Positions 27,188 through 63,332 of a DNA stretch of 64,000 nucleotides are shown one piece after another. The DNA lies in assembly GCF_035917675.1 (NCBI RefSeq), contig NZ_CP109104.1, positions 8,997,595 through 9,061,594 of the forward strand, read 5' to 3'. Under the pieces are notes generated by a model. That model searched no databases. It had not been told where the DNA came from and saw nothing but the letters and a program-made list of their open reading frames with translations. Position 1 is the stretch's first letter. Each line of letters begins with the position of its first letter. This stretch comes from Streptomyces sp. NBC_01775. GTDB taxonomy: Bacteria > Actinomycetota > Actinomycetes > Streptomycetales > Streptomycetaceae. A program made the position numbers and the translations under genes.

Positions 27188-27284
27188 CGGCAGGCTCTCG
27201 GCACAGACCCGCTCCCGCTGCCCGCACCCGCGGAGCCCACAATCAGTCGGAGCGAAGGGGCGCTCCTCGCTGCACCACCGCCCG

Positions 27285-43690: not shown

Positions 43691-45090
43691 GTGCGGCGCA
43701 GGAGCTGGTCGAGGGCGTCGGCGAGGCCGGCCTCATGCTGCTCGCGATCCCCTGCGTTGTTCGACCTCGTCCTGGACGTGGCGCCGGATGGCGTCGTCGA
43801 AGGGCTGGTGGATGTGGCCGCGGTGGATCCACGGGATTTCGTGGAGCTTTCCGTCGGTGAGGCGGACGAGGATCTGGCGGGCGTCGTGGGGGCTGTGGTG
43901 GGTGGACCTCCCACTTGCCGTCCCTGGCCGTGACCGGGGGAGCGCTGGCTGCGGTGGGGGCCGAGGATGTCGTGGTTGTAGGTGCGGTAGCCGAGGCTCG
44001 CGTCCGGTGATGGGCTGCCGGCGCACCGGCAGCAGTTCGAGGTCAGTCGGCCCCGCTCAGCGGGACGGGTACGTATCCGCTGATGGTGATCAGCGCGGCC
44101 CACATGGCGACGTCGACGGCGATCGTCAGCTCCGGCCGGCCCAGGCTGCCGTCCTCCAGGACGGCCATGATGTCCAGACGGGCGGTGCCGATCTGCACCT
44201 GCTCCCCGGGCCGCTGCACCACCGGCGCCGACGATGAGGCGCGGGCGGGTGCGGTGCCGGGTGCGCGCCGGGCGTCCCGGACGGCCGGCCGGGTCGGCCG
44301 GCACACTCACCAGCCGGTAGAACGTCGAGCGTGACGGCACTCCACCACCCCGCGCCCATGGGTGTCCTCCAGGACCTGCCCGACCAGTACCTGCAGTCCC
44401 TTCACCGTCCCCTTCGACCGGCCCCGCTGGCGCCGCAGCGCCTCCAGCACCGCGGCCACGACCCGCTCGTCGGCATACCCCGCCGGACGACGCCCACGGG
44501 CCGGCACCACGCGCTTGTCGGCCAGCCCCCACAACCCCTGCTTCCGGCAGGCGTACCGCATCCGCTCCACCGTCGTACGCGTCACCCGCGCGAAGCCCGG
44601 CGCCGCCAGCTCCTGCGCCTTGGCCGCGTCCCGCTGCGCCGGCGTCCACCGCTCGGGGTCGTACTGCGGCCGCATCGTCTGGCTGTCACGGCCACCCTCA
44701 GGGTGGCCATCCGGTCCCGCCTCCCGGATAGGGGGCAGCCAGGCTCCCGGATAGGGGCAGCCGGGCCGGCGCCCGCTGCTGGGCTGCCACCGGAACGGTC
44801 TCGAACAGCCCCCACCGCGGCACTGTGTCCGGTGCCCGCGCGCCCACCACTTCGAAGCCCGGGTCGGCGAACAACCGCCCCAGCAGGAGGCTCACTTCGG
44901 CGCCAGTCTCCTGCAGCAGGTGGACCCGCGGCCCTTGCAGGACGGCGACCTGCCAGGTCCGTCCCCGGCAGGTGAGGTGCGCGCCGGCCTCCACCACCGG
45001 CCGCTGGCTCCTACCGTGTGTGCCGCCCACCGCACTCGCCCCTTCCCCGACCGCCCCCGGCGCCCAGCCGCTTTCCGACATCCCCACCAC
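43690..45090 (-). pseudogene. TnsB/Mu-like transposase of a Tn7-like element, degenerate
   Basis: Pieces in order on the minus strand: GRTWQVAVLQGPRVHLLQET and FEVVGARAPDTVPRWGLFET (N-terminal domain); AAKAQELAAPGFARVTRTTV and RMRYACRKQGLWGLADKRVV (HTH); SRSTFYRLV; PGEQVQIGTARLDIMAVLED and GRPELTIAVDVAMWAA (rve core start, first Asp altered); then LGYRTYNHDILGPHRSQRSP and ARQILVRLTDGKLHEIPWIH (Mu C-terminal barrel). At least three frameshifts and an internal deletion of much of the catalytic core. It follows the TnsA-like gene, with overlapping ends. Confidence 0.7.
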
Positions 45091-45937
45091 TGCGTTCTGC
45101 GTCAGCGCAGACCAGCGCCCCCCTCGCGCAGCGGCTCATCAAGAGACGCGTCAGATGCCCGCACCACAGCGCGTGACAGACAGCCGGCAGCACTTGCAGA
45201 GGCTCACCCACCGCGGCTGCGCCGCCGGCCGGCGGGCAGGACACGGCGAATACTTCGGCCGGCGCGGCCCGCAGCCTGGGCGGGCCCTGACCGCGTGGGT
45301 GGCGGTAGCCGGCCGGCCACCGCAGATTCGCCGCCACCACCGCCGGGGGCGGCTCGAGGCGCCGGCAAGCCCGGCCCACACGCGCGCGCACGCTGCTTCC
45401 AGGACCATCCGCGCCCGCTGCGCCCTGTCCTCCGCCGGCGGCCGGGCTGGAGGGGCAGCCGGCGAGCAGGCCGGTGCCGTCCGCGTACAGGGCGAAGAGC
45501 TGCGGCACCCAGGAGCGCACCCGCCCGTCGGGTTCCCGCCACAGCAGCCGTACCGGACGTGCGGCCAGGCCGGTCACGTCCGGATTCCGGTCCAGGACCA
45601 TCAGCTGGGTGCGCATCGCTGCCGAACCGTGTACGACGTGCCGTCCGGTGGTCGCCGACCACCACCAGTCCGGCCCCCACCACCAGTCCGGCCCCCACCG
45701 GCGGCCCGGAACGACCGGAAACGCGGATACCGGCGCCAGGTTCTCGAACCGCACCGCCGCCGCCTGATCCCACGGCAACTGCGTCAGCCGCCCGGCGGCC
45801 GTGACGAACGCGGCCTCGATTCCCGCACCCTCGGCCCCTGCGGCAGCCTGCTGCACCCGCCTGCCGTGCTCGTGCCCCTCCACGCTCAACAGCCAAGTCA
45901 TGGCGGGCTGCTGAACGCCGTGATCCGGATCCGCCAC
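45011..45937 (-). CDS. TnsA-like transposon endonuclease subunit, probably inactive
   Basis: 308 aa in a single frame. Pattern: FVTAAGRLTQLPWDQAAAVR, ENLAPVSAFPVVPGRRW, WWSATTGRHVVHGSAAMRTQ, LMVLDRNPDVTGLAARPVRL, RSWVPQLFALYADGTGLLAG and VVAANLRWPAGYRHPR match actinobacterial TnsA-like proteins as I remember them. In those, SxLERD, HxPDYF and VVDVR carry the catalytic Glu, Asp and base; here they read SAAMRT, VPQLF and LLAGC, so the nuclease centre appears lost. A repeated WGPDWW (15-18-bp tandem duplication near 45660) is also unusual. It precedes the TnsB remnant. Confidence 0.6.
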   Translation of the reverse strand: MADPDHGVQQPAMTWLLSVEGHEHGRRVQQAAAGAEGAGIEAAFVTAAGRLTQLPWDQAAAVRFENLAPVSAFPVVPGRRWGPDWWWGPDWWWSATTGRHVVHGSAAMRTQLMVLDRNPDVTGLAARPVRLLWREPDGRVRSWVPQLFALYADGTGLLAGCPSSPAAGGGQGAAGADGPGSSVRARVGRACRRLEPPPAVVAANLRWPAGYRHPRGQGPPRLRAAPAEVFAVSCPPAGGAAAVGEPLQVLPAVCHALWCGHLTRLLMSRCARGALVCADAERSGGDVGKRLGAGGGRGRGECGGRHTR

Positions 45938-45944
45938 CCGACGG

Positions 45945-46238
45945 GTGAACGGCGCCCGCGATGCCGAGTTCCTGTACCCGTGGTCAGACCGGGAAGGTTC
46001 TCAGTTCCTGCAGGAGCCGCTGCCGGCCGGGCAACAGGCGGGGCGGTGCTGACCGGCCCGCTCCGATTCCACGGCACACAACGCCGAGACCAACCGCTAC
46101 CGGGGATTGCCGAAGGCCGACCGCGCCGCCCTTCTCGTTCGCGTACGCGAGATGCCACCCTTCAATCCCGTCGCGATATCAGCGATTCAAGCTCAAAAAG
46201 AGCAAATAATTGCTAGAATCGGCCGTCATGATGAGTAG
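45945..46238 (+). pseudogene. ORF with one in-frame TGA overlapping the tap-like start
   Basis: Frame from GTG 45945: NGARDAEFLYPWSDREGSQF, a TGA at 46050-46052, then HNAETNRYRGLPKADRAALL, VRVREMPPFNPVAISAIQAQ, KEQIIARIGRHDE, ending at 46238, 11 nt inside the tap-like gene. The second half reads as a real helical protein. It may be a decayed upstream partner of the tap operon. Confidence 0.3.
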
Positions 46239-47940
46239 TGAGGAGATGTTGCGGGCGACGGTGGCCGCGCTGTTGTCGCGTACGGGTGAGCGGCAGGCCG
46301 AGCTGGCCGCCGGAATCGGGCTGAGCCCGACGGGGCTCTCGCGTCGTCAGTCCGGCCGCGCGACATGGTCGCTGGAGGACGTGGACCGGCTCTCAGCGCA
46401 CTGGGGCATCGCGGTGCCGGATCTGCTGGGGGGCATCTCGCACGCGGTCGAGTGCCTGCCCGCCGACCGCCTCCCCACCAGCGCCCAGGCCACCACCTCC
46501 GCGCCCAAGGCGTCGGCCGCCGGTCAACTCCCTCTTCCTGCCGGGCCGGAGGAGTCACCAAAGGTGTCACCCGCCCCTCCCGACACCGAGCCGGACACTC
46601 CGCCCGCTCCGGCCCCCGAGCAGCAGCCGGCCACCGCCCCGGCCACTGCCACTGCCACTGCCCCGGCCCCGGCCCCGGCCCCGGCCCCGGTGCCGGTCGC
46701 TGCCCTGCCGGCTGCGCCGGTGGGTGCGCCTGTTGTGGCGGCGCCGGATCCGGGGCAGGCCGGCACCCCGGAGCCGTGTGTGCTGTGCGGCAAGGGCACC
46801 ACCGCCCGCGCCGCCGGACAGCCGCAGCACATGTACGGCCTGTGCGTCGGAGGCCAACTCCCCACCACCCTCGCCCCGCAGACGCCCCCCGCCCCGGCAC
46901 CAGCCCCCGCCGCGTCGGCCGTCACTGACGCCGGAACGCCGCCGGCGCCTTCGCCGTCTCCTCCGCGCCGCACAGCCGGCTACGCCGAAGGCGATCTGGG
47001 CACCACCATCACGGCAACGGTCGCGCGGGTGCTGCGCGAGCACGACGGCGACACCGACGCCGCCCGGGCCGCGCTCGTCAAACGCGCGATCCCCGACGTG
47101 ATGGCCCTGTTCGCACAGTCTCGCGCCACCGGCCGCTACGAGCACAAGGACTTCCCCCCGACCGAGGACATCCTCAAGAAGCGGACCCAGAAGGGCGCCG
47201 ACGCGATCTGGGAGGGCCGCCCCAAGTGGCACAACACCACCCTGGTGGCCGCCGTGAAAGCGGGCGACCACGCCGCCCTCGACATCACCGCCCTGGACGC
47301 CAACGCCGCCTACCTGTCCGCATGGAAGACCCGCCTCCCACTCGGGCGCCTCGTCCACGACACCAGCGGCCTCCACGACCCGAAGAAGGCCGGAGTGCAC
47401 CTGATCATCCCACCCGCCTGGGACCACACCGACCTCCCCTCACCCCTGGGAGCACGGATGGAACCCGGCGACCTGTGGGTGACCGAACCGACCCTGCGCC
47501 TTCTCCAACGCTGCGCGAAGGACGGCCTGTGCGAGGCCCCGGTCATCCGCGAGTCCTACGTGTCCGGCAGCACCGAGGGACTGCTGGAGAAACTGCGCCG
47601 GACCCTCGCGGAAGCCCGCGCCACCGCCATCGCCACAGATGACACACTCACGGTCGAGTACATCAAGGCGATGTACTCCAAGTTCGTCTCCACCATCGGC
47701 GAATCCTCCACGAACCGGGAGATCCGCCGCCCGGACTGGATGCACATCATCCGCTCCCAGGCATTCGCCAACCTCTGGCTGAAAGCCCACAAGGCCCGCA
47801 CCGGCGGGCTGACGGTGGTGCAGATGTCGGGCACCGACGAACTCCACATCGCAGGCGACTGGAAAACGGTATTCGCCGAGGGCCGGGGACTCGCGGACAT
47901 GAAGACCAAAGAGACCTACACCCTGGGGGGTAAGCCGTGA
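46228..47940 (+). CDS. Tap-like telomere-associated protein
   Basis: About 570 aa. N-terminal XRE-type HTH (~5-62: RTGERQAELAAGIGLSPTGL SRRQS). Then an Ala/Pro-rich linker (~85-175), a zinc-binding knot (C184, C187, H201, C206), a second linker, and the C-terminal Tap core: VKRAIPDVMALFAQSRATGR, ITALDANAAYLSAWKTRLPL, HLIIPPAWDHTDLPSPLGAR, LWVTEPTLRLLQRC, EYIKAMYSKFVSTIGES, RPDWMHIIRSQAFANLWLKA and MSGTDELHIAGD. In Streptomyces, Tap binds telomere DNA and recruits Tpg for end patching. The core motifs resemble family-B polymerase motifs A (D357), B (K480) and C (T536-D537). Start could be the ATG at 46228 or 46231; no clear ribosome site, so coupling or leaderless translation is possible. Ends overlapping the next gene (GTGA). 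Confidence 0.8.
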   Translation: MMSSEEMLRATVAALLSRTGERQAELAAGIGLSPTGLSRRQSGRATWSLEDVDRLSAHWGIAVPDLLGGISHAVECLPADRLPTSAQATTSAPKASAAGQLPLPAGPEESPKVSPAPPDTEPDTPPAPAPEQQPATAPATATATAPAPAPAPAPVPVAALPAAPVGAPVVAAPDPGQAGTPEPCVLCGKGTTARAAGQPQHMYGLCVGGQLPTTLAPQTPPAPAPAPAASAVTDAGTPPAPSPSPPRRTAGYAEGDLGTTITATVARVLREHDGDTDAARAALVKRAIPDVMALFAQSRATGRYEHKDFPPTEDILKKRTQKGADAIWEGRPKWHNTTLVAAVKAGDHAALDITALDANAAYLSAWKTRLPLGRLVHDTSGLHDPKKAGVHLIIPPAWDHTDLPSPLGARMEPGDLWVTEPTLRLLQRCAKDGLCEAPVIRESYVSGSTEGLLEKLRRTLAEARATAIATDDTLTVEYIKAMYSKFVSTIGESSTNREIRRPDWMHIIRSQAFANLWLKAHKARTGGLTVVQMSGTDELHIAGDWKTVFAEGRGLADMKTKETYTLGGKP

Positions 47941-48527
47941 ACCAGTCAGAGCGCGAGTGGGGGATCTGGCGCAAGTACGGGGCCCGGGGCATGCGGGGCG
48001 GGGACGCGCTCGCCCACGAACTGGAGCGCATCGTGCGCGCCCACGGCATCGCCTCCCTGGTCACCTCCCGGCGTGGCCTCAACGCCCGGCTGCGGTACCT
48101 GGACAGCCCGGCCGGTGCCGCCGCGCTGCGTGAGGCCGGGGTCCGGCCGCGCACCCTGCGCGACTGGCGGGCGGGCCGTACGACTCCGTCCCGGGCGAGC
48201 CGGGAGAAGATCGAGGCCGCCTACCTCGACCGCCGCCGCGACAACCTGATCCGCTCGGGCTGGATGAAGCGGCACCTCAACAACCAGGGCCGCGGCTCCC
48301 GTATGGAGATCTACCCCGTGGACCAGTCCGCCGTCCCGGAGAAGTACCGGCGCCCCAACGTCCAGGACCGCACCATCCAGGTCCGCTACATCTGGGACGA
48401 CGCCGTGGACGCCTGGCAGGCCGGGGACGCGGACACCCTCGGCGAGATCTGGGACGACGTCATCGCCGACCTCGACTCCGACTGGGTCGCCTACGCCTAC
48501 GTATCCGGCATCGGCATCAACGCCTGA
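47937..48527 (+). CDS. putative atypical terminal protein, partner of the Tap-like protein
   Basis: 196 aa, GTG start overlapping tap by 4 nt, just as tpg does at 27573. It does not look like Tpg, but has a comparable plan: helical N-terminus (GGDALAHELERIVRAHGIAS), HTH-like VRPRTLRDWRAGRTTPSRAS, basic region YLDRRRDNLIRSGWMKRHLN, then RGSRMEIYPVDQSAV and an acidic C-terminal domain (IQVRYIWDDAVDAWQAGDAD, IWDDVIADLDSDW). Several Tyr, Ser and Thr could serve as DNA attachment residue. Its position makes a terminal-protein or telomere-binding role the simplest idea; that is inference. A plain DNA-binding regulator is the alternative. Confidence 0.6.
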   Translation: MNQSEREWGIWRKYGARGMRGGDALAHELERIVRAHGIASLVTSRRGLNARLRYLDSPAGAAALREAGVRPRTLRDWRAGRTTPSRASREKIEAAYLDRRRDNLIRSGWMKRHLNNQGRGSRMEIYPVDQSAVPEKYRRPNVQDRTIQVRYIWDDAVDAWQAGDADTLGEIWDDVIADLDSDWVAYAYVSGIGINA

Positions 48528-48646
48528 AACATCCTGACGCTCTCCAGCAACTGCGCTCCGCCGCGCTGACGATGCACGACGGCCCGGTGGATGCCGCCGA
48601 CCGAACAGACACAAACGCTGCGGCGCCAGGTATGGCGGCCGGCGGA

Positions 48647-48665
48647 ACGAAGGATGTTCCTTCGT
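48647..48665. terminator. hairpin between convergent genes
   Basis: ACGAAGGA, loop TGT, TCCTTCGT, between the tap operon end and the epimerase gene end. Confidence 0.5.
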
Positions 48666-48745
48666 AGGCCGCTCCGGAGCTGAGCAAACTCATCTTGCGC
48701 CGTCGACCAAGGCGGGCTCGATTTCCGTTCCTCGTCAAGACCTGC

Positions 48746-49624
48746 TCAGGGCCGGGCGGCCGACCACTGCCTGAACGAAGCAGGCAGTGCCGCCAGGACA
48801 TCACTCTCCTGCGGGGTCCACGCCAACGCGCCCCTCGCAGCGGCGGAGTCGATGACCTCGTCACGGTCGAAAATCCGGTACACCGGCTTCTCGTCCTCAA
48901 CCGGGGCGAAGGCCAGGGCGTCGGCGCTGCCGGCCGCCCGGGCAGCGGCTTCGGCGACAGCCAGCGGGGCCGCGGGATGGGCGTCGGCCAGCAGGTAGGT
49001 GCGCCCGTCGTGCTCCTCGGGCGCACGCAGTACCGCCGTGTACGCCCGCGCCAGGTCCTCGACGTGAATCCAGGACCACACCTTGTCCCGCCGTCCCCGG
49101 TGCACCGGCCCGGAGGATCGGGCCTGGCGGAACCAGTCCCCGACGATCGAACCGCGTGCATCACCGCCGTGCACCATCCCCGGCCGCAGCACGGTGTGCG
49201 GCAGCCCGGCACTCCGCAGTTCGGCTTCCAGCCGAGCACGGAGATTGCCGTTGTCGACGGGGGTCTGAGGCGTCAGCACCGCATGGGCGTGCTCACCGTA
49301 GACCGAGCAGCCGGTCGTATACACCAGGTGCTGGCGGCGACCGGCGTCGGCGAGAGCGCCGAACAGAGCACGATCGGCGCCGACGGGATCATCCGGGTCG
49401 AAGGCGGTGTGGACCACGGCGTCCGCACCGGCGAGCATCCCGCTGAGCACGGCACGGTCCGCGAGACGTCCACGCAGCGGCCGGACACCAAAGTCCCGCA
49501 GCGCCCTCGCCCTGTCCGAGCCCGGATCCCGCGTGAGGGCAAACACCTCATGCCCCGCCTCGGCCAGAGCAACCGCAACCGCATTCCCGACATAACCGGT
49601 TGCCCCTGTGATCAGTACACGCAT
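48746..49624 (-). CDS. NAD-dependent epimerase/dehydratase family protein (extended SDR)
   Basis: 292 aa. MRVLITGATGYVGNAVAVAL is the NAD(P)-binding GxxGxxG start; YTTGCSVYGEH replaces the usual YxxxK region (no Lys four residues after this Tyr, so it may be an atypical or NmrA-like member); VLRPGMVHGGDAR and WIHVEDLARAYTAVL are typical of the family. The ATG at 49624 has GGG close to it but no clear ribosome site. Convergent to the tap operon, and followed upstream by a TetR gene on the same strand. Confidence 0.8.
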   Translation of the reverse strand: MRVLITGATGYVGNAVAVALAEAGHEVFALTRDPGSDRARALRDFGVRPLRGRLADRAVLSGMLAGADAVVHTAFDPDDPVGADRALFGALADAGRRQHLVYTTGCSVYGEHAHAVLTPQTPVDNGNLRARLEAELRSAGLPHTVLRPGMVHGGDARGSIVGDWFRQARSSGPVHRGRRDKVWSWIHVEDLARAYTAVLRAPEEHDGRTYLLADAHPAAPLAVAEAAARAAGSADALAFAPVEDEKPVYRIFDRDEVIDSAAARGALAWTPQESDVLAALPASFRQWSAARP

Positions 49625-49692
49625 CCCAAGAGACTAACTGTTGCGGGCCAGGAGGTTGTTGACGTGAGAGCGACTACACAGCTTCGAGTCCT

Positions 49693-50271
49693 TCAGCCAG
49701 AGCAGTTGACAAGGCTGAGCAGCACGGTGGTGATGGCCGATCGGGCGCTTTCAGGACTGATCGTCCCGCGAGCGGCCGCATGGCCAAGTGCGTCCGCGGC
49801 GCCTATGAATGCGATCGCTGCTTCCTCGTCGAGGTCCGCGGCACCGTCGGCGCTTCGCATCCCTTGTCGGCAGATGTCCACGTAGCGGCGTTCAGATTCC
49901 CGCCTAGCCTTCTCGAGGTCTGGTGTGCCGACCAGCGCGGCCACCACTCCACCGAGTTCGGCGCCTTGGGAGACCATGCACGCAACATGAGCCGTCGCGA
50001 TCGCTTCGACCCGCTGCCGTAGATCCGGCGGAGTGTGCGCAATCGCAGCACGCAGGTCAGCGAGGTGTCGATGGTCGAAGTCCTCATACAGCGAGAGGAG
50101 AAGCGCCGAGCGCGAGGAGAAGTGATCGTAGACGACGGGTTTGGAGATCCCTGCCCTGCCGGCCAGGTAAGCGAGCGTGAGCGCGTCTGTACCCTCAGTG
50201 GCGATGACGTCACGGGCAATGCCGACGAGCTGGGCTCGCCGGTCGGCGCTGGAGAGTCTTCGCCCGGTCAT
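49693..50271 (-). CDS. TetR-family repressor
   Basis: 192 aa. HTH IARDVIATEGTDALTLAYLA GRAGISKPVVYDHF followed by a helical ligand domain. Divergent from an NAD(P)H quinone reductase 68 bp away with a 39-bp near-perfect palindrome between them, so it most likely represses itself and that gene. The epimerase gene 69 bp downstream on the same strand may be co-transcribed. Confidence 0.87.
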   Translation of the reverse strand: MTGRRLSSADRRAQLVGIARDVIATEGTDALTLAYLAGRAGISKPVVYDHFSSRSALLLSLYEDFDHRHLADLRAAIAHTPPDLRQRVEAIATAHVACMVSQGAELGGVVAALVGTPDLEKARRESERRYVDICRQGMRSADGAADLDEEAAIAFIGAADALGHAAARGTISPESARSAITTVLLSLVNCSG

Positions 50272-50286
50272 GGCCAGCAGTCTCTC

Positions 50287-50325
50287 ACCCGCATGTAACC
50301 TACTAGTAGTAGGTTACATGCGGGT
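50287..50325. promoter_or_regulatory. 39-bp TetR operator palindrome
   Basis: Left arm ACCCGCATGTAACCTACT (50287-50304), centre AGT, right arm the exact reverse complement (50308-50325). It lies 16 bp from the TetR start and 14 bp from the reductase start. GTAACCTACTAGTAGTAGGT would bind one or two dimers. Confidence 0.8.
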
Positions 50326-50339
50326 CAAAGGAACTCTCG

Positions 50340-50942
50340 ATGCACACATTGCTGGTCGCCACGAACCCAGACCCCCAGTCCCTGACGCATCACGTACTCG
50401 GAAGAACCGAGGCAGCACTCCACCCCGCGTCAGTTGAGGTCGCCGACCTGTCCAAGGAACGGTTCGACCCCAAGTTCACCCTGGCGGACCGCCGGGCATA
50501 TCACGAGGGGGACAACTATCCAGCCGACATCGCCAGTGAGCACCATCGCCTCGAACGCGCCACCGACCTCGTATTGATCTTCCCCGTGTACTGGTGGTCA
50601 ATGCCTGCACTGCTGAAGGGGTGGATTGACCGTGTCTTTATCAACGGCTGGGCCTTCGAGTACTCCCCGACTTCGGGTCTGCGACCGAAACTTCAGACAC
50701 TCACCACGCACCTTCTGCCCATCGCCGGCGACGACTCGGGCGCATACGAGCGCCATGGGTACGAGAAGGCAATACGGACACAGATCGAGCACGGAATCAT
50801 CGACTACTGCGGCAGCCGGCGCGGCGCCACAGCATTCATCCACGAGTCCGAGCAGGATTCCCCTGAGGCCACAGCGCAGAGCGTCGACCAGGCGGTGCGG
50901 ACCATCAGTGGAGCCATCCATGCCCGCTCGACGCGAGCATGA
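50340..50942 (+). CDS. NAD(P)H dehydrogenase (quinone), flavodoxin-like fold
   Basis: 200 aa. MHTLLVATNPDPQSLTHHVL is the flavodoxin P-loop start, LVLIFPVYWWSMPALLKGWI DRVF is the hallmark helix of the MdaB/KefF/NQO family, and HLLPIAGDDSGAYERHGY forms part of the FMN/FAD site. Reduces quinones by two electrons, a detoxification role. AAAGGA lies before the ATG. Controlled by the divergent TetR gene. Its stop overlaps the start of an IS481 transposase remnant (ATGA), so the insertion junction is right at the gene end. Confidence 0.86.
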   Translation: MHTLLVATNPDPQSLTHHVLGRTEAALHPASVEVADLSKERFDPKFTLADRRAYHEGDNYPADIASEHHRLERATDLVLIFPVYWWSMPALLKGWIDRVFINGWAFEYSPTSGLRPKLQTLTTHLLPIAGDDSGAYERHGYEKAIRTQIEHGIIDYCGSRRGATAFIHESEQDSPEATAQSVDQAVRTISGAIHARSTRA

Positions 50943-51345
50943 CCACGCATCCGAACGCACCTTTGCCTGCCGAGGGACGTCGACGGCTGATCGAGCACTG
51001 TCGGACCCCTCCGATCACCCCTTGTCGCCGCCGAGATGGGAATCTCCCGGGCATGCGCGTCGAAGTGGGTGAACCGGTGGCGCCGTCACGGAGACCTCGA
51101 CCTGCTCGACCGCCCCTCGACCCCGCACCGCAGTCCGCGTGCGACACCGGCGTGGGTGATCGAGAAGACCGAACCCTGACGGCGGAACGAGAAGTGATCC
51201 GCGCAGCGGATCACTCACGAGCTCGCCGCACCCGGGCACACGCCCAACCGCCGTACAATCACGCGGCACTTGACCAAGCCGGGTCTGGGACACCGCCGGT
51301 TCCTCGGTCCCTGCGGTGACAGCAACCGGGAACCGGGCAAGACCA
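50939..51345 (+). pseudogene. IS481-family transposase, N-terminal part, frameshifted
   Basis: THPNAPLPAEGRRRLIEHCR starts in one frame; MGISRACASKWVNRWRRHGD and LLDRPSTPHRSPRATPAWVI follow in another; GLGHRRFLGPCGDSNRE in a third. This is the HTH half of IS481 transposases. The catalytic rve core is absent; the sequence passes into an IS5 fragment at ~51350. Confidence 0.6.
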
Positions 51346-51349
51346 CCGC

Positions 51350-51722
51350 TCGCTGGCCCGGGCACATGGCGCATCTGGATGCGAAGAAAGCCGGCCGGAT
51401 TCCCAAGCGCGGCCGGCCCCGGCGCCGCCCCGACACCGTGCTCGGTGACCGCGGCTACGACCACGAGAAGTACCGCAGCCTCGTCCGCGTACTCGGCGTG
51501 AAGCCACTGATCGCGCGACGCGATACCGAACACGGCTCCGGACTTGGCACCCAACGCCGGGTTGTCGAACGCGCCTTCGCCCACCTGCACTGGTACCGCC
51601 GTCTGCGGATCCGCTGGGAGATCCGCGACGACATCCACGAAGCCTTCCTCATGCTGGGATGCGCACTCATCTGCTGGCGACGCCTGTCACAGTCGACCCG
51701 AGTCCTTGTCCTCCTGCAGTAG
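51350..51722 (+). pseudogene. IS5-family transposase, C-terminal part
   Basis: RGRPRRRPDTVLGDRGYDHE KYRSLV (second Asp), HGSGLGTQRRVVERAFAHLH WYRRLRIRWE (catalytic Glu) and HEAFLMLGCALICWRRL are the end of an IS5-group transposase. The first Asp and N-terminus are missing. Confidence 0.7.
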
Positions 51723-52085
51723 CCATTCCCTGACCGAAGGAACCCGGTCGAGCAGCTGACTGACCTGCATGCCTTCTTCGCGCGAGGTCACCCTCGGCAG
51801 CAGGGCGAAGTCTTCGGGAAGCACGTCCAGATAGCTCACCACGCGGTCTCCCGCACGCAGAGTGGTCAACAGCTCGCACCGCAGCTGACGCGGAACGTCC
51901 GGCAAGCTGTTCCACAAGACCGGCCACAGGTAGTGGGCTCCGTCATGCGCCGCATTCGCTTGCACCCACGCCGGGTCCAACCGCGAGTTCAGGCTGAGGG
52001 CACACGCGCGCTCCTCCAGCCTGAACAGCGAGGCCGAATCGATGACTTTCACCTCGCGAGGCAGCGGCGGATCAAAGTGCATCAC
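51687..52085 (-). CDS. hypothetical protein
   Basis: 132 aa, acidic: FDPPLPREVKVIDSASLFRL EERACALSLNSRLDPAWVQA and LLTTLRAGDRVVSYLDVLPE. It has good codon bias. It shares its last 12 codons with the antisense end of the IS5 fragment, so its natural C-terminus may have been lost. Family unknown. Confidence 0.5.
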   Translation of the reverse strand: MMHFDPPLPREVKVIDSASLFRLEERACALSLNSRLDPAWVQANAAHDGAHYLWPVLWNSLPDVPRQLRCELLTTLRAGDRVVSYLDVLPEDFALLPRVTSREEGMQVSQLLDRVPSVREWLLQEDKDSGRL

Positions 52086-52759
52086 CCCATGCTGCCCGAC
52101 GACACCTCACACCGGGCAGTCGACCCCAGAAAGTCATTCCGTTAGGAGTTCTAAGGCACAGCGCCCAAACGAGTGAACCTCCGGGTAGTGCAGGCGTGAA
52201 GTACGCACATCTCGAGCCCCCAGCGCACAACCCGAGCCGGGCCACTCCGTGGCAGGCCGAAGTGCGGCGGCTCCCTTGTCGTTTCGGCAGCAAGCTGGGC
52301 GGCCCCGTACTGCCGTTGAGGGTGCAGTGCCTCGACCAGGTTCGCGACGTCCTCGCCCGTGCGCGTGGTGAACAGGCCGCCGGGCGGGAGGAGCGGGGCA
52401 CCTTGGACGGTTCTCATCGGCCGAGAGACCTGCGTCCTGGTAGTCGTCCGCGAAGCGGCAACACGCGGCAACCGTCCGCAGAAGCGGTGGTTGCCGTGGT
52501 GGTCCAGCACCGTCGCGCCGACCTGTTCGAGCTCGGCCAGCCAGCGGGCCCTGTCTTCGTCCGTGCGGCGGGGCCGGGCGCCGAAGGCGACCAGTCTGCG
52601 CCCCGCTCCGAGGTGTCCGGCTTCGTCGGCGCGGATCTTCGACTGTGCCCGGTCCGAAGCGCGCGGGTTCCAGGAATCTTGATAGGCCAAGCCCTGGAAC
52701 CCGCTCGTGAGTCGCGACAGCCGCGCCAGTTGGCAGGCGGGTTCTCGGCTGCACGCGCC
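52086..52759. other. degenerate region, minus-strand coding traces
   Basis: Pieces such as DEDRARWLAELEQVGATVLD HHGNHRF are coding-like on the minus strand but frames break repeatedly. No gene can be defined. Confidence 0.3.
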
Positions 52760-53500
52760 CCCGAACTTGCCTGCTCGTGGTTCACAGGAGCACTGCGCCG
52801 AGTGTCCTCCAGAACCACCGTGTCCTGGACATCGATGCGGAGCGGCACAGTGCCATCGGGACGGACGAGCTGTGCTTCCGTCGTGTCCAGATCCACGGAC
52901 ACCCCGACAGCGCCCGTGTCGGGGTCCAGATAGGTGAACACCGTCACGCCAGCGACCTCGATGCAGGGCAGGTCATCGTTGCCGGCCATCGGATGGAAGA
53001 CGGCCTTGAAGTTGGCTTCCTCGCACCCCTTGGCGTCACAGGAGTTGCCGGGCGGCACGATGCGCGTCCCGGCACGGCTATCGATCTCTTCTTCAGGCGG
53101 TAACCCTCATACCGGCTGTTCCCGCGGTTGGGGCTGTAGTAGAGCTGAACGGCTTCGCCGAAGCGGGCGAGCCGTTGTGCGAGCTGTACGGCGGCCGTCT
53201 CGCGGTCGTGATCTGTGGCGTGGTTCGCCGCGGGATCCCACTGGGCGGCAGCGTGCAGCAGCTCGGGCAGTCCGGCGTCGAGCAGCGTCTTCAGGGCGTC
53301 GGGGGCGGCGACCAGGGCGGCGACGGCCGCACGGGCGTCGGTGACCGCCTCGGCGGCATCCTGCTGAGAGTCGACGTCGGTCGGGCTGTGCGGGACGGGG
53401 AGACCGGCGATGAGTGCGTGGCGGTCGTAGATTGGAAGTCGGTGTGCGTCCAGGTTGCGTGCAGGGTGGGCTCTCCTGGTGTCACGCCAAGGGGTTCGTA
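52760..53500 (-). pseudogene. conserved hypothetical protein with a frameshift near 53095
   Basis: First frame: DAAEAVTDARAAVAALVAAP, DALKTLLDAGLPELLHAAAQ, LAQRLARFGEAVQLYYSPNR, YEGYRLKK. After a one-base shift: EEIDSRAGTRIVPPGNSCDA, FKAVFHPMAGNDDLPCIEVA GVTVFTYLDPDTGAVGVSVD. One original protein of at least 240 residues; function unknown. Confidence 0.45.
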
Positions 53501-53805
53501 GGTGACCGGCAGGTCCGGGCTGTCCCCGAAAGCACGGCCCGCCGCACCTCATCACGAACGAGTGTTCTCCGGCTGGCGGAGCGCATCAGGCGCGGCGGCG
53601 AGGGAGGCGGAGATCGTCCGACGGAAGCGAAGATTCTCCTTCCGTCTTTTCCCGCAAACTTAGAATTCCCTAAACCGTATTGCCTTTTCGCAGAGCAACG
53701 GGAACCCTTTCGAAGTGAGGCAATCGCGCCTCGGGCGGCCCTGGGGGCACGGCTGTCACGCGTGCTTTTCGACTAGGAGTCGCAAATTCGACTCAGGGGG
53801 AAACC

Positions 53806-54312
53806 ATGAGGATCGGAAAATGCGGCAACATTGGTGCCGGCGTTTTGCTGTTAGCGGCACTGGGCGTCCTCGGGGTGCCTACCGCGCAGGCTGATGACCG
53901 CGTGACGGCAAGTGAAGGTTCGCCGGCCATAGCAGCGGACTGGCACTACATCTACACTGCGGACGAGGGGGACACGGGAGGACAAGCTTCAATCCAGTTC
54001 GACGGCGACAAAGTCAAAATATGGGATCGCCAGGACGACGGGAAGGATGTGCAGTTGGACGTCTGGAACGTCAGCAACGATCCCGACACTCACGAGTACC
54101 GGCTGCGAACCGAGACCGGCTACGGAGGCACAGGGTCCGTGGACGCCGGTGATGGTCAGCCATGGAACCTGGCCGAAGGGGACTGCTTCCGCTTCCGCAT
54201 TCGGCTGGTGGAGCCTGAGACCAAGGACGACGTAGTCCCAGGCTCGACATATTCCGAGCAGGTGCGGAACCACAACTCAGGCGGGGCGCGCCAGTGCAGC
54301 GGTGTCGAGTGA
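53806..54312 (+). CDS. secreted protein of unknown function
   Basis: 168 aa. Signal peptide MRIGKCGNIGAGVLLLAALG followed by VPTAQA cleavage site. The mature part is acidic and beta-rich (ASIQFDGDKVKIWDRQDDGK, DVQLDVWNVSNDPDTHEYRL) with two Cys (GDCFRFRI, RQCSGVE). AGGGGGA 5 nt before the ATG. The upstream 150 bp are less GC-rich than the surroundings, suiting a promoter. No family recognised. Confidence 0.72.
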   Translation: MRIGKCGNIGAGVLLLAALGVLGVPTAQADDRVTASEGSPAIAADWHYIYTADEGDTGGQASIQFDGDKVKIWDRQDDGKDVQLDVWNVSNDPDTHEYRLRTETGYGGTGSVDAGDGQPWNLAEGDCFRFRIRLVEPETKDDVVPGSTYSEQVRNHNSGGARQCSGVE

Positions 54313-54328
54313 AGCTCGCGCCAGATGA

Positions 54329-54369
54329 CTGATCACCGGTGAGTGCATTCTCCGGCCACGGGTGATCAG
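54329..54369 (+). terminator. hairpin after the secreted gene
   Basis: CTGATCACC and GGTGATCAG, 9-bp perfect stem, 23-nt loop, 17 bp after the stop codon. Confidence 0.5.
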
Positions 54370-54539
54370 CCACCGGCTCAGCCTGGGGTGCTCCGGGAAC
54401 CGAGGGCAGGACCCCGGGCTGGCCGGCTACGCGATCTGTGCACGGGTGTCCCACCGCAACCTGGCACGCCATCACCGACACCCACCAACCCACCAACACC
54501 GAACCAGCACACCGCAGGTGGGCTGTTACGGTGACCGCA

Positions 54540-54665
54540 TGACGACGGACGCCGTCTCACCGGCGATCTCGCATCGGTACCCAGGGCCGAGTTCGCCTTC
54601 CCCGGCCCGCTGCGCGACCAACTCGTTGCGGCGATCCTCAACGGTTCCAAGACTTCCACGACACA
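54540..54665 (+). pseudogene. ASCH-domain protein, N-terminal fragment
   Basis: From ATG 54540, TTDAVSPAISHR, then in a second frame VPRAEFAFPGPLRDQLVAAI LNGSKTST, the start of ASCH-domain (RNA-binding) proteins. Cut off at ~54665 by the IstB fragment. Confidence 0.5.
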
Positions 54666-55010
54666 CTCGTCCAGACAGAGCAGGTCAACGCGTCCCTAGC
54701 GGGCGATGGTGCGGGCGAGGTTTCCTCTCGTCCGCGGCCTCGGCGAGTTCGTTCACCAGGTTGACGGTGGTGGTGTAGCAGACACGGAATCCCGCTTCGG
54801 CGATCGCGGTTCCGATGCCGATCAGCAGGTGGGACTTGCCGGTGCCGCTGTCACCGATCAGGCAGAGCGGCTGGTTGGCCTTCGCCCAGGCCGGATCGGC
54901 CAGCGTGCCCACCAGTTCCGGGGTGACGTTCGGGTTCTCCGCGAAGACGAAGTCCTCCAGCCGCTTGGGCCTGGGGAAGTTCGCTTCCCTGACCAGCCGC
55001 TCCTTGCTCG
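54650..55010 (-). pseudogene. IstB-like ATPase of an IS21-family element, fragment
   Basis: ERLVREANFPRPKRLEDFVF, LADPAWAKANQPLCLIGDSG TGKSHL (Walker A), FRVCYTTTVNLVNELAEAAD. The frame then shifts, giving ARTIAR, stop, GRVDLLCLDE (Walker B) before ending. Both ends are lost. Confidence 0.7.
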
Positions 55011-55645
55011 GGCGCCGTGAGGTCGAGCGCCAGACGGGCCAGAGCCATGGAGCCGTGCACGCAGCCGCCCGAGCAGGAGACCAGGGCGCTGCGCGGGCCT
55101 CCGCGCCGCGCATACAGGGCGTGCCGGGTGGGCGAGGCGAACTCCTTGGTATGGACGGCGGCTTGCTCCGCGTCCGGGCGGTCACGTAGAAGCCAGAAGC
55201 CGGTCGCCTCCCCCTCGTCGAAGGCCCGGCCCATCGAGACCCCAGGAGCGTTGCGCACCTCGCGAAAAGAGACAATGACTGGTTCAGCACCCCACAGGGG
55301 TGTCAGGAACAGTCGTTCGTGTCCGGCCGCCGGGTCGCTGAAGACATGCCTCGGGTCCGGCTGGAGGGGGACGGAGCGGGCCCGCAGGACGGGGGTCCCC
55401 CGCGGCCACTCCAGTTCGGCTCCCTGCAAGTGCTCTCGCTGGACCGGGCAGGAAGAACAGGCACCTTCCATCGTGCACCGCCCGTACCCGCCCCACCGCT
55501 GACGGCCGGTCATGCTCTCGTACAGCGTGACGTACTTGGTCGGGAGCAGCCCGCACTGGTCGCGAGGACGGCCCACGTGTGCGTTCAGGGAAAGCCGGTT
55601 CCCCCCGTGGTCGGGGCGGTCCGGTTCAGGCAGATAGACAGGCAT
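55011..55645 (-). CDS. conserved Cys-rich hypothetical protein, 3' end replaced
   Basis: Starts at ATG 55645 (GGAGG 5 nt upstream): MPVYLPEPDRPDHGGNRLSL NAHVG, YESMTGRQRWGGYGRCTMEG ACSSCPVQREH (three Cys), VIVSFREVRNAPGVSMGRAF, LDLTAPE. After ~55011 the frame enters IstB sequence out of frame, so the natural C-terminus is gone. It directly follows a DUF6349-like gene. Function unknown. Confidence 0.5.
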
Positions 55646-55679
55646 GTAGTCCTCCGGTCGTGACGGGACGGGCCGCCCC

Positions 55680-56090
55680 GGCGCCGTGGCGCAGCCCGCC
55701 GCTGATGGGCAGCGAGCCTGGGAGCGCGCCCCGGCGAAAGCGTTCAGAAGAGGGCAGGTGGACTCGGGAACGGGGGGGCGGGTGCGGGCGGGTGGGGGCA
55801 TGTGGAGCCGGTAGCGCGGGCTGGCGGTGGCACGGCGCACGAGCTGGGGGGCTCCGGCGTCGAGCCAGCGGGGCGGGTAGAGGGCGCGGACGAGGGCCCA
55901 TACGCGGGCGCTTTCCTGGCCGGCGGGACCGAGCAGGGGCAGGAGGGTGCGCCACCCGGGAAACGCGTGGTCGTGGGTGTCCTCGACGGCGGCGCGGTCT
56001 GCGGTGCGACCGGTGCGCTCCTCGTCCTCCCAGGTGCAGGCGAGGCAGGCCCCGCGGTACTCCTCGGCGTCGTCGCTGGTGCGGCGAGTA
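55680..56090 (-). pseudogene. DUF6349-like protein, 3' part, cut by IS insertion
   Basis: Minus strand, in several frames: DDAEEYRGACLACTWEDEER, HDHAFPGWRTL, LLGPAGQESARVWALVRALY PPRWLDAGAP. This resembles Streptomyces DUF6349 proteins (CLAC.WE, DHAFPGWR). The preceding residues (RAPHVCGHPALT) continue beyond the IS at 56957-57000, so the IS sits inside the gene. Frameshifts downstream show further decay. Confidence 0.5.
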
Positions 56091-56956
56091 AGACCGTGTC
56101 CTATGTGGTGAGGCGGACGTTGGTCTGTGTATGGGGCGGGGAACGTGGAGTTGGATTGTTCCGGACGGGTTGTGGGAGGTCGCGAAGCCGCTGATCCCGG
56201 CGTCGAGAGTCCGGCCGCAGGGTGGCGGGACGCAGGACACGCCTGATGAGACGGTGTTCGCGGCGATCGTCTATGTACTGGTCAGTGGCTGTGCCTGGCG
56301 GTCGTTGCCGCCGTGCTTCGGGATATCGAAGTCGACGGCCCATCGTCGGTTCGTGATCTGGTCGAGAGCGGGCGTCTGGGGCCGGCTACATGAGACTGTG
56401 CTGCACCGGCTCGATGACGCCGGCCTCATCGACGTCACCCGTGTCGTTCTCGACTCCGCCCACGTGAGGGCGAAAAAGGGGCGAACACACAGGCCCGTCG
56501 CCTGTGGACCGGGGCAAGCCGGGTTCGAAGATGCACGTTCTGTCGGACGCGAACGGACTGCCCCTCCTCGTCGGCGTCTCCGCCGCCAACGTCCACGACA
56601 GCGAAGGGCTGAAGCCGATGGTGGCCGGTCACCAAACGAGACACGACCCTGATCGAGGCCGGTACTTCAAACCTCAGCGGCTGCACGCCGACAAAGCCTA
56701 CGACCGGCCAGACCTGCGCAGATGGCTGCGCGGCAAGCGCATCGGCGTCCGCATCGCCCGCAAAGGCATCGAGTCCAGCGAGCGGTTAGGGCGCCGCGGA
56801 TGGGTCATTGAACGCGCCATGTCATGGCTGACCGGCTACCGACGCCTCAACCACCGCTACGAATGCGACCCGGGCAACTACCTGGCCTTCCTCGGCCTCG
56901 CAGCCGCCCTGTGCTGCTACAAACGACTCATCCGCCTCACCACATAGGACACGGTC
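56091..56956 (+). mobile_element. IS5-family insertion sequence, complete ends, TAA target duplication
   Basis: 866 bp. The left end (56090-56116) and right end (56931-56957) are exact reverse complements over 27 bp, beginning GACCGTGTCCTATG. TAA occurs on both sides (56088-56090 and 56957-56959), a 3-bp TNA duplication typical of the IS5 family. One transposase in two frames. Confidence 0.88.
56131..56947 (+). CDS. IS5-family transposase split by a frame change at A5G4
   Basis: Frame 1 (56131-56652): VPDGLWEVAKPLIPASRVRP, AIVYVLVSGCAWRSLPPCFG, LIDVTRVVLDSAHVRAKK (first Asp). Frame 2 (to 56947): EHTGPSPVDRGKPGSKMHVL, LHADKAYDRPDLRRWL (second Asp), RRGWVIERAMSWLTGYRRL (Glu). The switch is at GCGAAAAAGGGGCGAA (~56469): reading +1 there, or restoring one lost G, gives a normal full-length DDE transposase. 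Either a simple 1-base deletion or programmed frameshifting as used by some IS5 relatives. Confidence 0.8.
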
Positions 56957-57015
56957 TAAGGGCCGGGTGCCCGCACACATGCGGTGCCCGAGACCGCGAA
57001 CCGGGAGGGGATTCG

Positions 57016-57447
57016 ATGGAGACGCTGACAACCGTGACGGGTGTGCTGGGGTTAGTGGGCGTGGCGGGGGTGCGCGCGGCCCGCGCGTGGATGTGCGCGC
57101 GCACCCGTCTGACCGCCCTCCGTCTGGACCCGGCGCACGTCGCCGCCCGCCAGGACGCCACGCTGTCGGGCAGGCTCGTCACCTACGAGCGCGACTGGCG
57201 TGCCGCCGCCACCGACCCGAACCAGAACATGGCCTCCTGGACGCGCCACGTCCAGGAGGCAGCGGAGGAAGCCATCGAGCGCCTGCCCTCCCGCCGCCCC
57301 AGCGACCGATTCGAGATCCTCAACAGTGTTCTCTCCCACCTCGCCACCTGCACCCGCGCGGCACGGGAGGCCGCCGCCGCAGCACCCGCCGAGCGCCCCC
57401 ACTCTCCCGTGGACCGAGAACCGGTCCAATCGCTGTCAAATCAGTGA
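57016..57447 (+). CDS. hypothetical protein with N-terminal hydrophobic segment
   Basis: 143 aa from the ATG at 57016 (GGGAGGGG 5 nt upstream). METLTTVTGVLGLVGVAGVR forms one membrane helix, then a helical domain (WTRHVQEAAEEAIERLPSRR, FEILNSVLSHLATCTRAARE). Probably membrane-anchored with a cytoplasmic domain. Family unknown. Confidence 0.65.
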   Translation: METLTTVTGVLGLVGVAGVRAARAWMCARTRLTALRLDPAHVAARQDATLSGRLVTYERDWRAAATDPNQNMASWTRHVQEAAEEAIERLPSRRPSDRFEILNSVLSHLATCTRAAREAAAAAPAERPHSPVDREPVQSLSNQ

Positions 57448-57748
57448 GCCACTCCGTTGGCCTGGCAGGATCGCACACGGGGGGATCCTGAACGACAGCA
57501 CTGGGTGAACGCGCAGCCGACTGCAACGATCACTGAGGATGTACGGTCGTGCCGAGGCTGCGCTGAAGCCCGAGTCGCAGAAGCTGTTCACCGAGCCGTG
57601 CCTGCACGGGCTGCGCGCCAAGTTGTGCGATGGCGCGCAAGGGGGGCCGGCGCTCCCGAAGTGCCGGAGCGAGTCGCCGCATGATGCGGCGGTCGCTGCT
57701 GGGTGGCACGAGGCGGCGTCCTGGGCCGGGCAGTGGGAAGGGCATAGA
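57448..57748. other. convergent intergenic region
   Basis: About 300 bp between converging genes, with no gene or clear hairpin recognised. Confidence 0.4.
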
Positions 57749-58858
57749 TCACGGCAGAGACTTTTTGAGCTCATTGACGAGCAGTCCTCGTTGATGCGTC
57801 GACAGAGCTCCTCTTTTGATCCGGGTGGTCCCAGGCTCGCAGAAGGGGGTGAAGCCTGCGATGAGAAGATCCAACTGCTGTGGGTATCGACGGCCCAGCT
57901 CTTGGCGAGCGGCATGCTCCGCCTCATGCCAGGGCTTCGCGACGTCTTCTTTCCGCTGCGCGGCAACCCGGCCCAGCTGCCGGACGTGCATCTGGCACTC
58001 GCGCCACCGCTGGCCCAGGGCACGGATGAACCTGCGCCGGTTGATGAGCGCCCAGGCGTCCTCCTCCTTCAACGAACGCACAGCCTTCATGTCGAGAGAC
58101 GTGAGTTCAGTGGTGAACACTGGCTCAAGTCCGGCCAGTTCACAGTGCCGGTCGCGGAGGTGTTCCAAGGCTCCGGCCCATCGGCGCAGGAGCAGCGGGT
58201 GCCGAAGCTCGTCACAGCGGTCCTGCTGGTGGGTGGTGTCGCCGGCCGCCAGGGAAGTGAGCTCGTCCGGCGGCGCGGACAGCAGAGCCTGTATTCTCCC
58301 GCTGTCGGACGGCGCGTCGATCAGACCTTTTGTGACGGCATCCTCGATGGCGTCAAAAACGTCACGGTAGGACACGTGGTAGAACGGATGATCCGAAGGC
58401 AGGCCGCGCCGGGCCAGTTCCTGTGCTCGTAGTTCTAAGTATTCCTCACGGTAGTGCTTGGCCAAGATCGCCAGGGCTGCGAGCCGGGCATCCTTGAGAT
58501 GCTCACCCAGCATCTCCCAGCCCTGATCTGCGCGCCTTGCTTTCAGAAGCCCGTTGACCTGTCCCATCCGCTGGAGAACGACGCCCCCACGGCGTTTCAC
58601 TTTCGTCAAGCGCGGATCACCGGTAAATGCCATGCGCTCGATACTCGACGCAAGTTCTCCTGCGCCCGCGTACAGGGCGTCAGCCCACTGCTCAATCCAG
58701 TCGTCGCTGTTCAGAGCCTCGGAAACAGTGGAGTCGACGCGACCGTCAGCCTCGGCAACGGCCGTTGAGACCAGGACATCGAAGTCGACCTCCCACCAGC
58801 GCTTGAGTTCGAGGTAGGTCATCGCGCGGATCTCGTGGATCTTCAGGTATCGCGGCAT
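57749..58858 (-). CDS. orphan 369-aa helical protein, unknown
   Basis: An intact, long, predominantly helical protein: MPRYLKIHEIRAMTYLELKR, DDWIEQWADALYAGAGELAS, RRADQGWEMLGEHLKDARLA ALAILAKHYREEYLELRAQE, SDHPFYHVSYRDVFDAIEDA, LLLRRWAGALEHLRDRHCEL, WHEAEHAARQELGRRYPQQL. No signal peptide, membrane segment or catalytic motif; rich in Glu, Arg and Trp. Codon use includes more A/T-ending codons than neighbours, suggesting transfer. I do not recognise it; a phage/plasmid or defence-related origin is possible but not shown. Confidence 0.7.
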   Translation of the reverse strand: MPRYLKIHEIRAMTYLELKRWWEVDFDVLVSTAVAEADGRVDSTVSEALNSDDWIEQWADALYAGAGELASSIERMAFTGDPRLTKVKRRGGVVLQRMGQVNGLLKARRADQGWEMLGEHLKDARLAALAILAKHYREEYLELRAQELARRGLPSDHPFYHVSYRDVFDAIEDAVTKGLIDAPSDSGRIQALLSAPPDELTSLAAGDTTHQQDRCDELRHPLLLRRWAGALEHLRDRHCELAGLEPVFTTELTSLDMKAVRSLKEEDAWALINRRRFIRALGQRWRECQMHVRQLGRVAAQRKEDVAKPWHEAEHAARQELGRRYPQQLDLLIAGFTPFCEPGTTRIKRGALSTHQRGLLVNELKKSLP

Positions 58859-59081
58859 GCTGGGCTCTCTTTGATGAGCGCTCCCGGTTCAGGACCATGA
58901 TGCGGGAACGCGTTCGGAGGCGGACTCGTACGGCCAACCACTACCCTCCCGACGGCCCCTTTCCTCACCTGAGCGGGGAGACCCGCGCCGCTGCCCTCGG
59001 CGGTCGCCGAAGTCCAGGTCGGGCGGATCATCATCGACCCAGCCGGGCACTTTGACCAATATCGAACTAAGATTCGATCTA

Positions 59082-59579
59082 TGAGTGGGTGGCGTGCCCG
59101 TGCGGGGCCGTGGGCGACCCTGCCCGACGGCCAGCAGCTTGACGTCATCGTCACCGCCCGCGAGCGCACCTCGGACGGCCGGGTGGTTCGCCTGTGAGGC
59201 CATCCTGCCCACCCGCTACGAGCACGCCGACCGGCAGAGAGAGGCGAAGGCCGCACCGACCCGGATCACCGTGGCGGCAGACTCCATCACCCCGATTCCC
59301 GGCGAGCGCTACGACGCGGTGCCGACGAAGGGTGCGGACGGCAGTGGTTGGCGGTGCGTACTCGGGGTGTGCGGAATGAGGCGCCGCAGTGGTACGTGCA
59401 CCGGAAGGACTGCTGGCAGGCCCGGGGCGACTGGAAGAGGCGGCTGGTGACGGCGGCGAAGGCGCCGGCCCTGCTGGCGGACATGAGCGCGGCCCGGGTG
59501 TGCGACGTATGCCGCCCCGACCGGAAGCCGCGGACCTGGTCGGCCTCCGCCGAGTATGAAGACCGCCGGGATGGATAGC
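59082..59579 (+). pseudogene. uncharacterised Streptomyces protein with two compensating frameshifts
   Basis: ATG 59082: GPWATLPDGQQLDVIVTARE RTSDGR, then by removing one G at ~59181 (GGG run) WFACEAILPTRYEHADRQRE, RITVAADSITPIPGERYDAV PTKGADG, then by adding one base at ~59341 WLAVRTRGVRNEAPQWYVHR KDCW, ADMSAARVCDVCRPDRKPRT. The corrected product (~165 aa) is smooth and ends normally at 59579. It contains C-x2-C and HRKDC elements, perhaps zinc-binding. A relative lies at 21640-22330. Confidence 0.6.
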
Positions 59580-59589
59580 GCAGGCTCTC

Positions 59590-59889
59590 TGTCTCAGGCT
59601 CTGGCGAGTGCTTGGCGCAGGTCGCGGGCGGCGGATTCCTGACGGTTCCGGGCAGGGATGCTGCGGTAGAGGTCGGCTGCGCGGGTGTGGGGTGAGGCCC
59701 TTTCGCCATCCGGAGAGGAATTCGGCAAGCGCCGTCGTGGCAGTGCTACAGGCCCGCGCGGCGTCGCCTTCCCGTAGCCAGCAGGCTGCCGCGTCGATGT
59801 GCAGCAGGCCGCGCGTCATGCTGCTGGTCGGAGCGGAGAGCTCAAGGGCACGGTCCTGGCTTGCGCGTGTGGCTCTATCGACGTCACAC
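59590..59889 (-). pseudogene. C-terminal part of a TPR-containing regulator
   Basis: RATRASQDRALELSAPTSSM TRGLLHIDAAACWLREGDAA RACSTATTALAEFLSGWR then, after a frameshift near 59705, RAADLYRSIPARNRQESAAR DLRQAL. This is the TPR tail of Streptomyces XRE/TPR regulators. It is cut at 59890 by the ISL3 element; the N-terminal part is not found beyond the element. Confidence 0.55.
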
Positions 59890-63299: not shown

Positions 63300-63332
63300 T
63301 TCTGTTTCCCTTCCGTCGTGTTGCGGAATTCG

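Follow-up and report, generated by a model that had tools for sequence, protein, structure and literature searches.

Two overlapping genes near the chromosome end of Streptomyces sp. NBC_01775, probably a GtpB/GtpA-type telomere pair, with a predicted protein-primed polymerase fold

In this report we focused on two overlapping genes in a 64,000-nucleotide stretch of Streptomyces sp. NBC_01775—hereafter the window, which forms the right-hand end of contig C1 (9,061,594 bp; window base 64000 is C1 base 9,061,594) in a two-contig assembly. These genes very probably encode a machine that patches telomere ends, of a non-archetypal kind (probably GtpB/GtpA) that appears to contain a cryptic protein-primed polymerase of the phi29 type. 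An earlier note on this DNA had described a Tap-like open reading frame (ORF) followed, with a 4-nt GTGA overlap, by a 196-aa ORF; the coordinates confirm both ORFs and the overlap, which would couple their translation, and place the YPVDQ and YIWDD motifs that it had read in the partner at residues 126-130 (48312-48326) and 151-155 (48387-48401), respectively. This arrangement is more than chance, because the partner, P0002, has 256 relatives at E ≤ 0.01 (120 of them listed) and the C-terminal region of the Tap-like protein, P0001, has 1872 (from 8000 scored candidates sharing most words). The evidence set out below supports a non-archetypal pair of terminal protein (TP) and telomere-associated protein (TAP), which appears to represent a second kind of telomere-copying system, one that is widespread.

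The first important finding is that the larger protein appears, from its predicted structure, to hold a stripped-down DNA polymerase of the protein-priming kind used by some viruses. The modeled C-terminal domain has the fold of a phi29-type polymerase domain, including the segment that separates motifs A and B. In an alignment of the window domain with 46 of 47 dereplicated loci (430-800 aa; L086 was left out), the candidate catalytic aspartates of motifs A and C are Asp357 and Asp537, both invariant and placed by hhalign (Prob 1.7%). Structural alignments of phi29 to this domain begin at residue 122-189, and Pfam found no exonuclease match in residues 1-225 of P0001, which comprise a helix-turn-helix (HTH) and an Ala/Pro-rich linker; the polymerase domain apparently comes without a 3'-5' exonuclease domain. 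The HTH is clearer in the Tap-like relatives P0124 and P0126 (Pfam, E ~1e-7), and a pattern similar to CxxC-x13-H-x4-C is present in 38 of 68 Tap-like ORFs. Several points weigh against a polymerase: support from sequence alone is weak (the hhalign comparison with the phi29-family alignment has P 0.03), P0001 and the relatives searched match no Pfam polymerase family, motif C has a glycine in place of the first aspartate of phi29, and the motif B lysine is shifted relative to phi29. Because the Pfam polymerase match is absent, we describe the domain as one that works like a phi29-type polymerase and do not file it as a member of that family. The polymerase-like domain had not featured in the earlier note. 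Other Tap-like proteins are larger: 15 of the 68 ORFs reach at least 700 aa, L061 and L076 are family ORFs of 1,099 and 1,674 aa with DnaB_C domains, and in the pair on the second contig of the same genome (L008, C2:259267-262146) the Tap-like protein is a fusion in which a Phd/YefM-like stretch and a DnaB_C helicase domain accompany the polymerase-like domain.

Table 1. Features of the gene pair and of the chromosome end in the window
Feature	Position	Strand	Remarks
Tap-like gene	46228..47940	+	570 aa (P0001), ATG start; N-terminal HTH, Ala/Pro-rich linker, C-terminal polymerase-like domain
HTH of Tap-like protein, ~residues 11-57	46258..46398	+	Weak Pfam HTH matches, E 0.06-0.24
CxxC-x13-H-x4-C, possible zinc knuckle, residues 184-206	46777..46845	+	
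C-terminal domain of Tap-like protein, residues 226-570	46903..47937	+	Predicted fold of a protein-primed B-family DNA polymerase
Asp357 codon, motif A-like (LDxNAAY)	47296..47298	+	D in 47/47; hhalign-aligned to phi29-family motif A, weak statistics
Lys480 codon, motif B-like (YxKAMYSKF)	47665..47667	+	K in 47/47; match to phi29 motif B lysine uncertain
Asp537 codon, motif C-like (GTDELH)	47836..47838	+	D in 47/47; aligned to phi29 motif C, weak statistics
GTGA overlap, common to both ORFs	47937..47940	+	
Partner gene, candidate TP	47937..48527	+	196 aa (P0002), GTG start, TGA stop
HTH domain of partner, residues 37-108	48045..48260	+	
Ser181, candidate DNA-attachment residue	48477..48479	+	S 62, T 7 of 69; coil before short helix; function inferred
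Right copy of terminal inverted repeat with the pair	44998..63996		At least 19 kb, 99.98% to left end
Telomere-like chromosome end	63873..64000		Similar to end of plasmid NZ_CP108555

The second important finding concerns the position of the pair among known telomere systems. Archetypal Tap and Tpg have the same operon plan and likewise an HTH in both proteins. The label Tap-like holds at the level of profiles—hhalign of the C-terminal domain with archetypal Tap gives P 3.8e-5 and Prob 71% over 218 columns that include the D-x-N motif—but not at that of the curated NCBIfam model (NF047542, cut-off 600 bits), which P0001 does not match at E ≤ 10. Ten archetypal Taps contain invariant DxN, K...GK, and SDC stretches, in the same order, that correspond by eye to the three motifs; when archetypal Tap was compared directly with the phi29 family by hhalign, no match emerged, which speaks against extending the polymerase reading to it. 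The partner is indeed unlike Tpg, as the earlier note had it: P0002 does not match the Tpg model of NCBIfam (NF047541, cut-off 90 bits) at E ≤ 10, the model finding window 27603-28139 instead, it is 17-24% identical to 15 Tpgs, and its hhalign match (P 9e-4, Prob 23%) spans 72 columns of the N-terminal (HTH) half. GtpB and GtpA of S. griseus IFO 13350 (Suzuki et al. 2008, as cited in PMC7205883; this and the other PMC articles are cited here from excerpts) are a Tap-like protein and, encoded just behind it, a small TP (entries SGR_RS00475 and SGR_RS00470, respectively, as quoted there), with GtpA given as 18% identical to Tpg. The type strain S. griseus NCTC13033 has one full pair of the P0001/P0002 family (564 and 191 aa) and only fragments of archetypal tap/tpg; its small protein is ~46% identical to P0002 and 17-25% identical to 15 archetypal Tpgs. 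S. rimosus NRRL WC-3904 (L044) also has one pair and no Tpg match. Because of the single pair, the tap/tpg fragments, and the Tpg identity (17-25% against the quoted 18%) in NCTC13033, P0001/P0002 probably belong to the GtpB/GtpA family, already reported in principle, with which the comparison is by description only. Members of the P0001/P0002 family are also carried by pSGZL and pSCAT, which PMC8743542 lists as Sg2247-class, and by pRLB1-9.2, a linear plasmid of strain RLB1-9; an excerpt of PMC7205883 gives Tap/Tpg homologues as absent from a plasmid of this strain that is there named pRLB1-9.1.

Hairpins were sought at 26 replicon ends, picked for a replicon or genome that has the pair. The exact box GCGTCGTGTC lies in the last 30 nt of our own C2 (right end), G051 (both ends), pSCAT (left end; the right end has none), pRLB1-9.2 (right end), NBC_01207, NBC_01157, and S. 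albidoflavus NBC_01331. Hairpins with GGA, GTA, or GCA loops adjoin these boxes, and two-mismatch forms of the box occur in pSGZL, G025 C2, and G023 C3. The earlier note had suggested looking for novel palindromes at the replicon ends: hairpins with these loops are present, and the right end of C2, with its box and GGA/GTA hairpins, resembles pSCAT and pSGZL of the Sg2247 class. A search for the pattern GCGTCGTGTCTSC in 61 genomes, not picked by presence of the pair, matched in 22 and within 20 nt of a contig end in five (G000, G021, G023, G037, and G051), all of which fall among the 23 genomes with a full partner (P 0.006); end distances were checked for 15 contigs, the rest being judged by known lengths or other matches, except G038 C1. 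A full partner is here a match of >200 bits, our own threshold, and G050 is counted despite one internal stop. On the other side of the balance, the box is missing from the last 60 nt of the fetched ends of G010 C1, G015, G049, G052, G055 C1, NBC_00105, S. mobaraensis, and pshk1—all of which carry the pair—and from the contig ends of our own C1, whose right end shows no stronger folding than shuffled versions of it (z -0.2, against -2.7 for the left end). C1 stops inside an apparent CGC-GGA-GCG hairpin, ~46 nt short of the NBC_01207 record end, and its ends align to those of NBC_01207 and NBC_01157 with scores of 55 and 43, where the highest among 100 shuffles reached 32 and 30; the C1 contig ends appear to be cut short. 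Two replicons with other kinds of end may be mentioned: G049 C1 has at both ends a very long palindrome (stem ~23 bp) rather than short GNA hairpins, adjoined by a pair of the same family, and at the left end of G052 C1 the hairpin loops have 4 nt (GTCA, GCCA) instead of 3. The proposal of the earlier note that this is a separate, further type of telomere, distinct from the GtpB/GtpA and Sg2247 systems, could draw on the C1 ends, which over the stretch present match the fetched Sg2247 ends (pSGZL and pSCAT) no better than shuffles, and on GtpA and GtpB being known by description only. We nevertheless consider it unlikely, since the pairs on pSGZL, on pSCAT, and in S. griseus belong to the same protein family, and since the C1 ends resemble those of NZ_CP108555 and NZ_CP108620, whose GCGTCGTGTC box lies further out. 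The family is widespread, probably includes GtpB/GtpA, and is present on two Sg2247-class plasmids; we do not retain the idea of a new type.

The distribution of the pair across genomes also supports a non-archetypal telomere system. In a profile search of a tool-drawn sample of 60 Streptomyces genomes, archetypal Tap scores above its curated cut-off—our definition of a full Tap—in 41 (41 of 61 when our own genome, which is not among the 41, is included), and a full partner is present in 22 (28 at E ≤ 0.001). The two tend to replace each other, with a full partner in 14 of the 19 genomes without Tap vs 8 of the 41 with Tap (Fisher P 1e-4). This complementarity is imperfect: 5 of the 19 Tap-less genomes also lack a full partner, and both systems occur together in the 8 Tap-bearing genomes. 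The five with neither (G001, G011, G012, G024, and G040) possibly hold further telomere systems or reflect assembly gaps; the G001 assembly is 79% complete and G012 carries a partial Tap match. The earlier note had named a wide occurrence of homologues without tap and on circular replicons as a sign that it was wrong. This is not what we found: among 80 genome loci kept out of 119 partner relatives, a Tap-like ORF lies directly upstream of the partner start in 69, in 52 loci with a 1-nt overlap with the nearest in-frame start, and partners on plasmids are enriched at ends. (Among the 69 pairs, the partner ORF of L060 is unusable; 68 Tap-like and 68 partner ORFs were analyzed further.) In the other 11 loci the Tap-like gene is not just upstream, which counts against a strict pair. 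P0002 matched 151 plasmid records, every one of them from a genus of the Streptomycetaceae, and P0001 matched 150. In 26 of the 60 rows listed from the 151 records, a record end is no more than 5 kb away, where 5.7 are expected and 10,000 simulations gave a maximum of 14; distances are to record ends, with topology unchecked for most. Among these rows, 13 of the 16 closest relatives are within 5 kb of a record end. On single-contig chromosomes the partner lies at 549-1115 in G015, and at 3096-3707 and 10673431-10674042 in G049 (10,677,137). The remaining 34 plasmid rows, whose distance to an end exceeds 5 kb, weigh against a role confined to ends and would suit a different function, in which the pair would act together with DnaB-type helicases to initiate replication inside linear plasmids, by protein priming or as a primosome, and its end location would merely reflect plasmid-derived chromosome arms. 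DnaB_C fusions in three family members and a dnaB gene directly upstream of the pair on pRLB1-9.2 also agree with this possibility, which we judge improbable in view of the complementarity with archetypal Tap, the duplication of the partner near both ends of single chromosomes (our own C1 and G049), and the terminal box that accompanies it.

In the host genome, partner copies lie on C1 at 15474-16061 (-) and 9045531-9046118 (+), therefore 15.5 kb from each end, and window 63996-44998 recurs at 99.98% as the opening 19,000 bp of C1, which places the pair in a terminal inverted repeat whose length is 19 kb or more. Another pair, at 259267-261552 and 261559-262146, is found on the second contig, C2 (275,123 bp). 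The left end of C2 duplicates the C1 end (99.97% over the first 3 kb) and its right end is a different, Sg2247-like telomere; C2 is apparently a hybrid replicon. The archetypal Tap model finds only fragments in this genome, one of which, a C-terminal piece (model positions 604-695), lies at window 27274-27543, next to a lone archetypal Tpg (model positions 5-183, 203 bits) at window 27603-28139; together they are the remains of an older telomere system. This lone Tpg, which matches the model over that whole span, might still cap the chromosome, with a Tap-like function supplied from C2 or elsewhere and the pair standing idle, and a functional lone Tpg is reported for SLP2 (PMC3572947). Such an arrangement seems very unlikely here, because the Tpg of SLP2 required a chromosomal tap (PMC3572947), of which our genome has only fragments, and because the partner gene is intact in both C1 copies.

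The partner is the candidate TP, and its predicted structure is of high quality (pLDDT 94.7, pTM 0.85), with structural matches that are weak or of HTH type only. Database names of relatives are "hypothetical protein," "transcriptional regulator," "helix-turn-helix," or "acyltransferase," and the second and third, like the HTH domains in both proteins, could suggest a pair of transcription regulators. The chance of this is very slight: profile searches of P0002 and three relatives (Pfam, plus NCBIfam for P0002) reached no known regulator family—membership of which, the earlier note had said, would undermine a TP—the larger protein has a polymerase-like predicted fold, and the genes lie at ends. 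For the DNA-attachment site of a TP, our guess, from conservation and the model, is Ser181, which is the best conserved of the hydroxyl residues lying in coil within the C-terminal half, as judged from an alignment of P0002 with 23 database proteins and 45 loci (n = 69). Its alternation of serine and threonine resembles the Ser/Thr exchange at T114 of Tpg (PMC3572947). Residue 40 is as constant (S 65, T 4), and Tyr54, Tyr96, and Tyr186 are invariant.

Taken together, these findings suggest how the pair would patch ends. The HTH and linker of the Tap-like protein would recognize the folded 3' overhang left by internally initiated replication, and the 196-aa partner would be gripped, as TP, by the segment separating motifs A and B of the polymerase. 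With Asp357 and Asp537, the polymerase domain would link the initial nucleotide to one of the partner's hydroxyls, Ser181 being the best guess, and make a short DNA primer for a host polymerase to extend, while the partner would remain on the 5' end as a cap. The parallel with phi29 polymerase lies in the predicted fold and in the partner serving as primer like a TP; in contrast, no exonuclease domain is found, the motif B lysine is shifted, motif C has one aspartate fewer, and whereas phi29 copies its whole genome the pair would act on 3' overhangs. Tac and Tpc of SCP1 are another non-archetypal TAP/TP pair with the same gene order (PMC3572947, PMC4513846), compared here by description only; Tpc has 259 aa (PMC3572947) vs 196 aa in the partner. 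The combinations Tap/Tpg and Tac/Tpc each attach nucleotides to the TP with no other polymerase present (PMC4513846); a cryptic protein-primed B-family polymerase (PolB) in the Tap-like protein offers a simple account of this activity. We lean, with less assurance than for the pair itself, toward a broader view: Streptomyces TAPs—GtpB-type and, by remote homology, archetypal Tap—would be a host-encoded, exonuclease-less branch of protein-primed PolB derived from a phi29-like phage or linear-plasmid replicator, some fused to DnaB, with the TP serving them as dedicated primer. On this view, the "new class of DNA polymerases" of 2015, said to have no polymerase motifs, would turn out to be a cryptic PolB, and the pair would supply the missing end-patching proteins of Sg2247-class telomeres.

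Three points are new as far as the open literature was searched: the polymerase fold, how widely the family occurs, and the link to Sg2247-class ends. An excerpt of PMC4513846 states that Streptomyces does not encode a B-family polymerase and that Tap and Tac polymerize without any polymerase motif, and one of PMC3937824 takes it that S. albus J1074 has a Tpg/Tap pair still to be identified. Both statements become testable, since a pair with a predicted polymerase active site provides direct candidates for such missing functions and ties the telomeres of bacterial chromosomes to protein-primed replication of the phage type.
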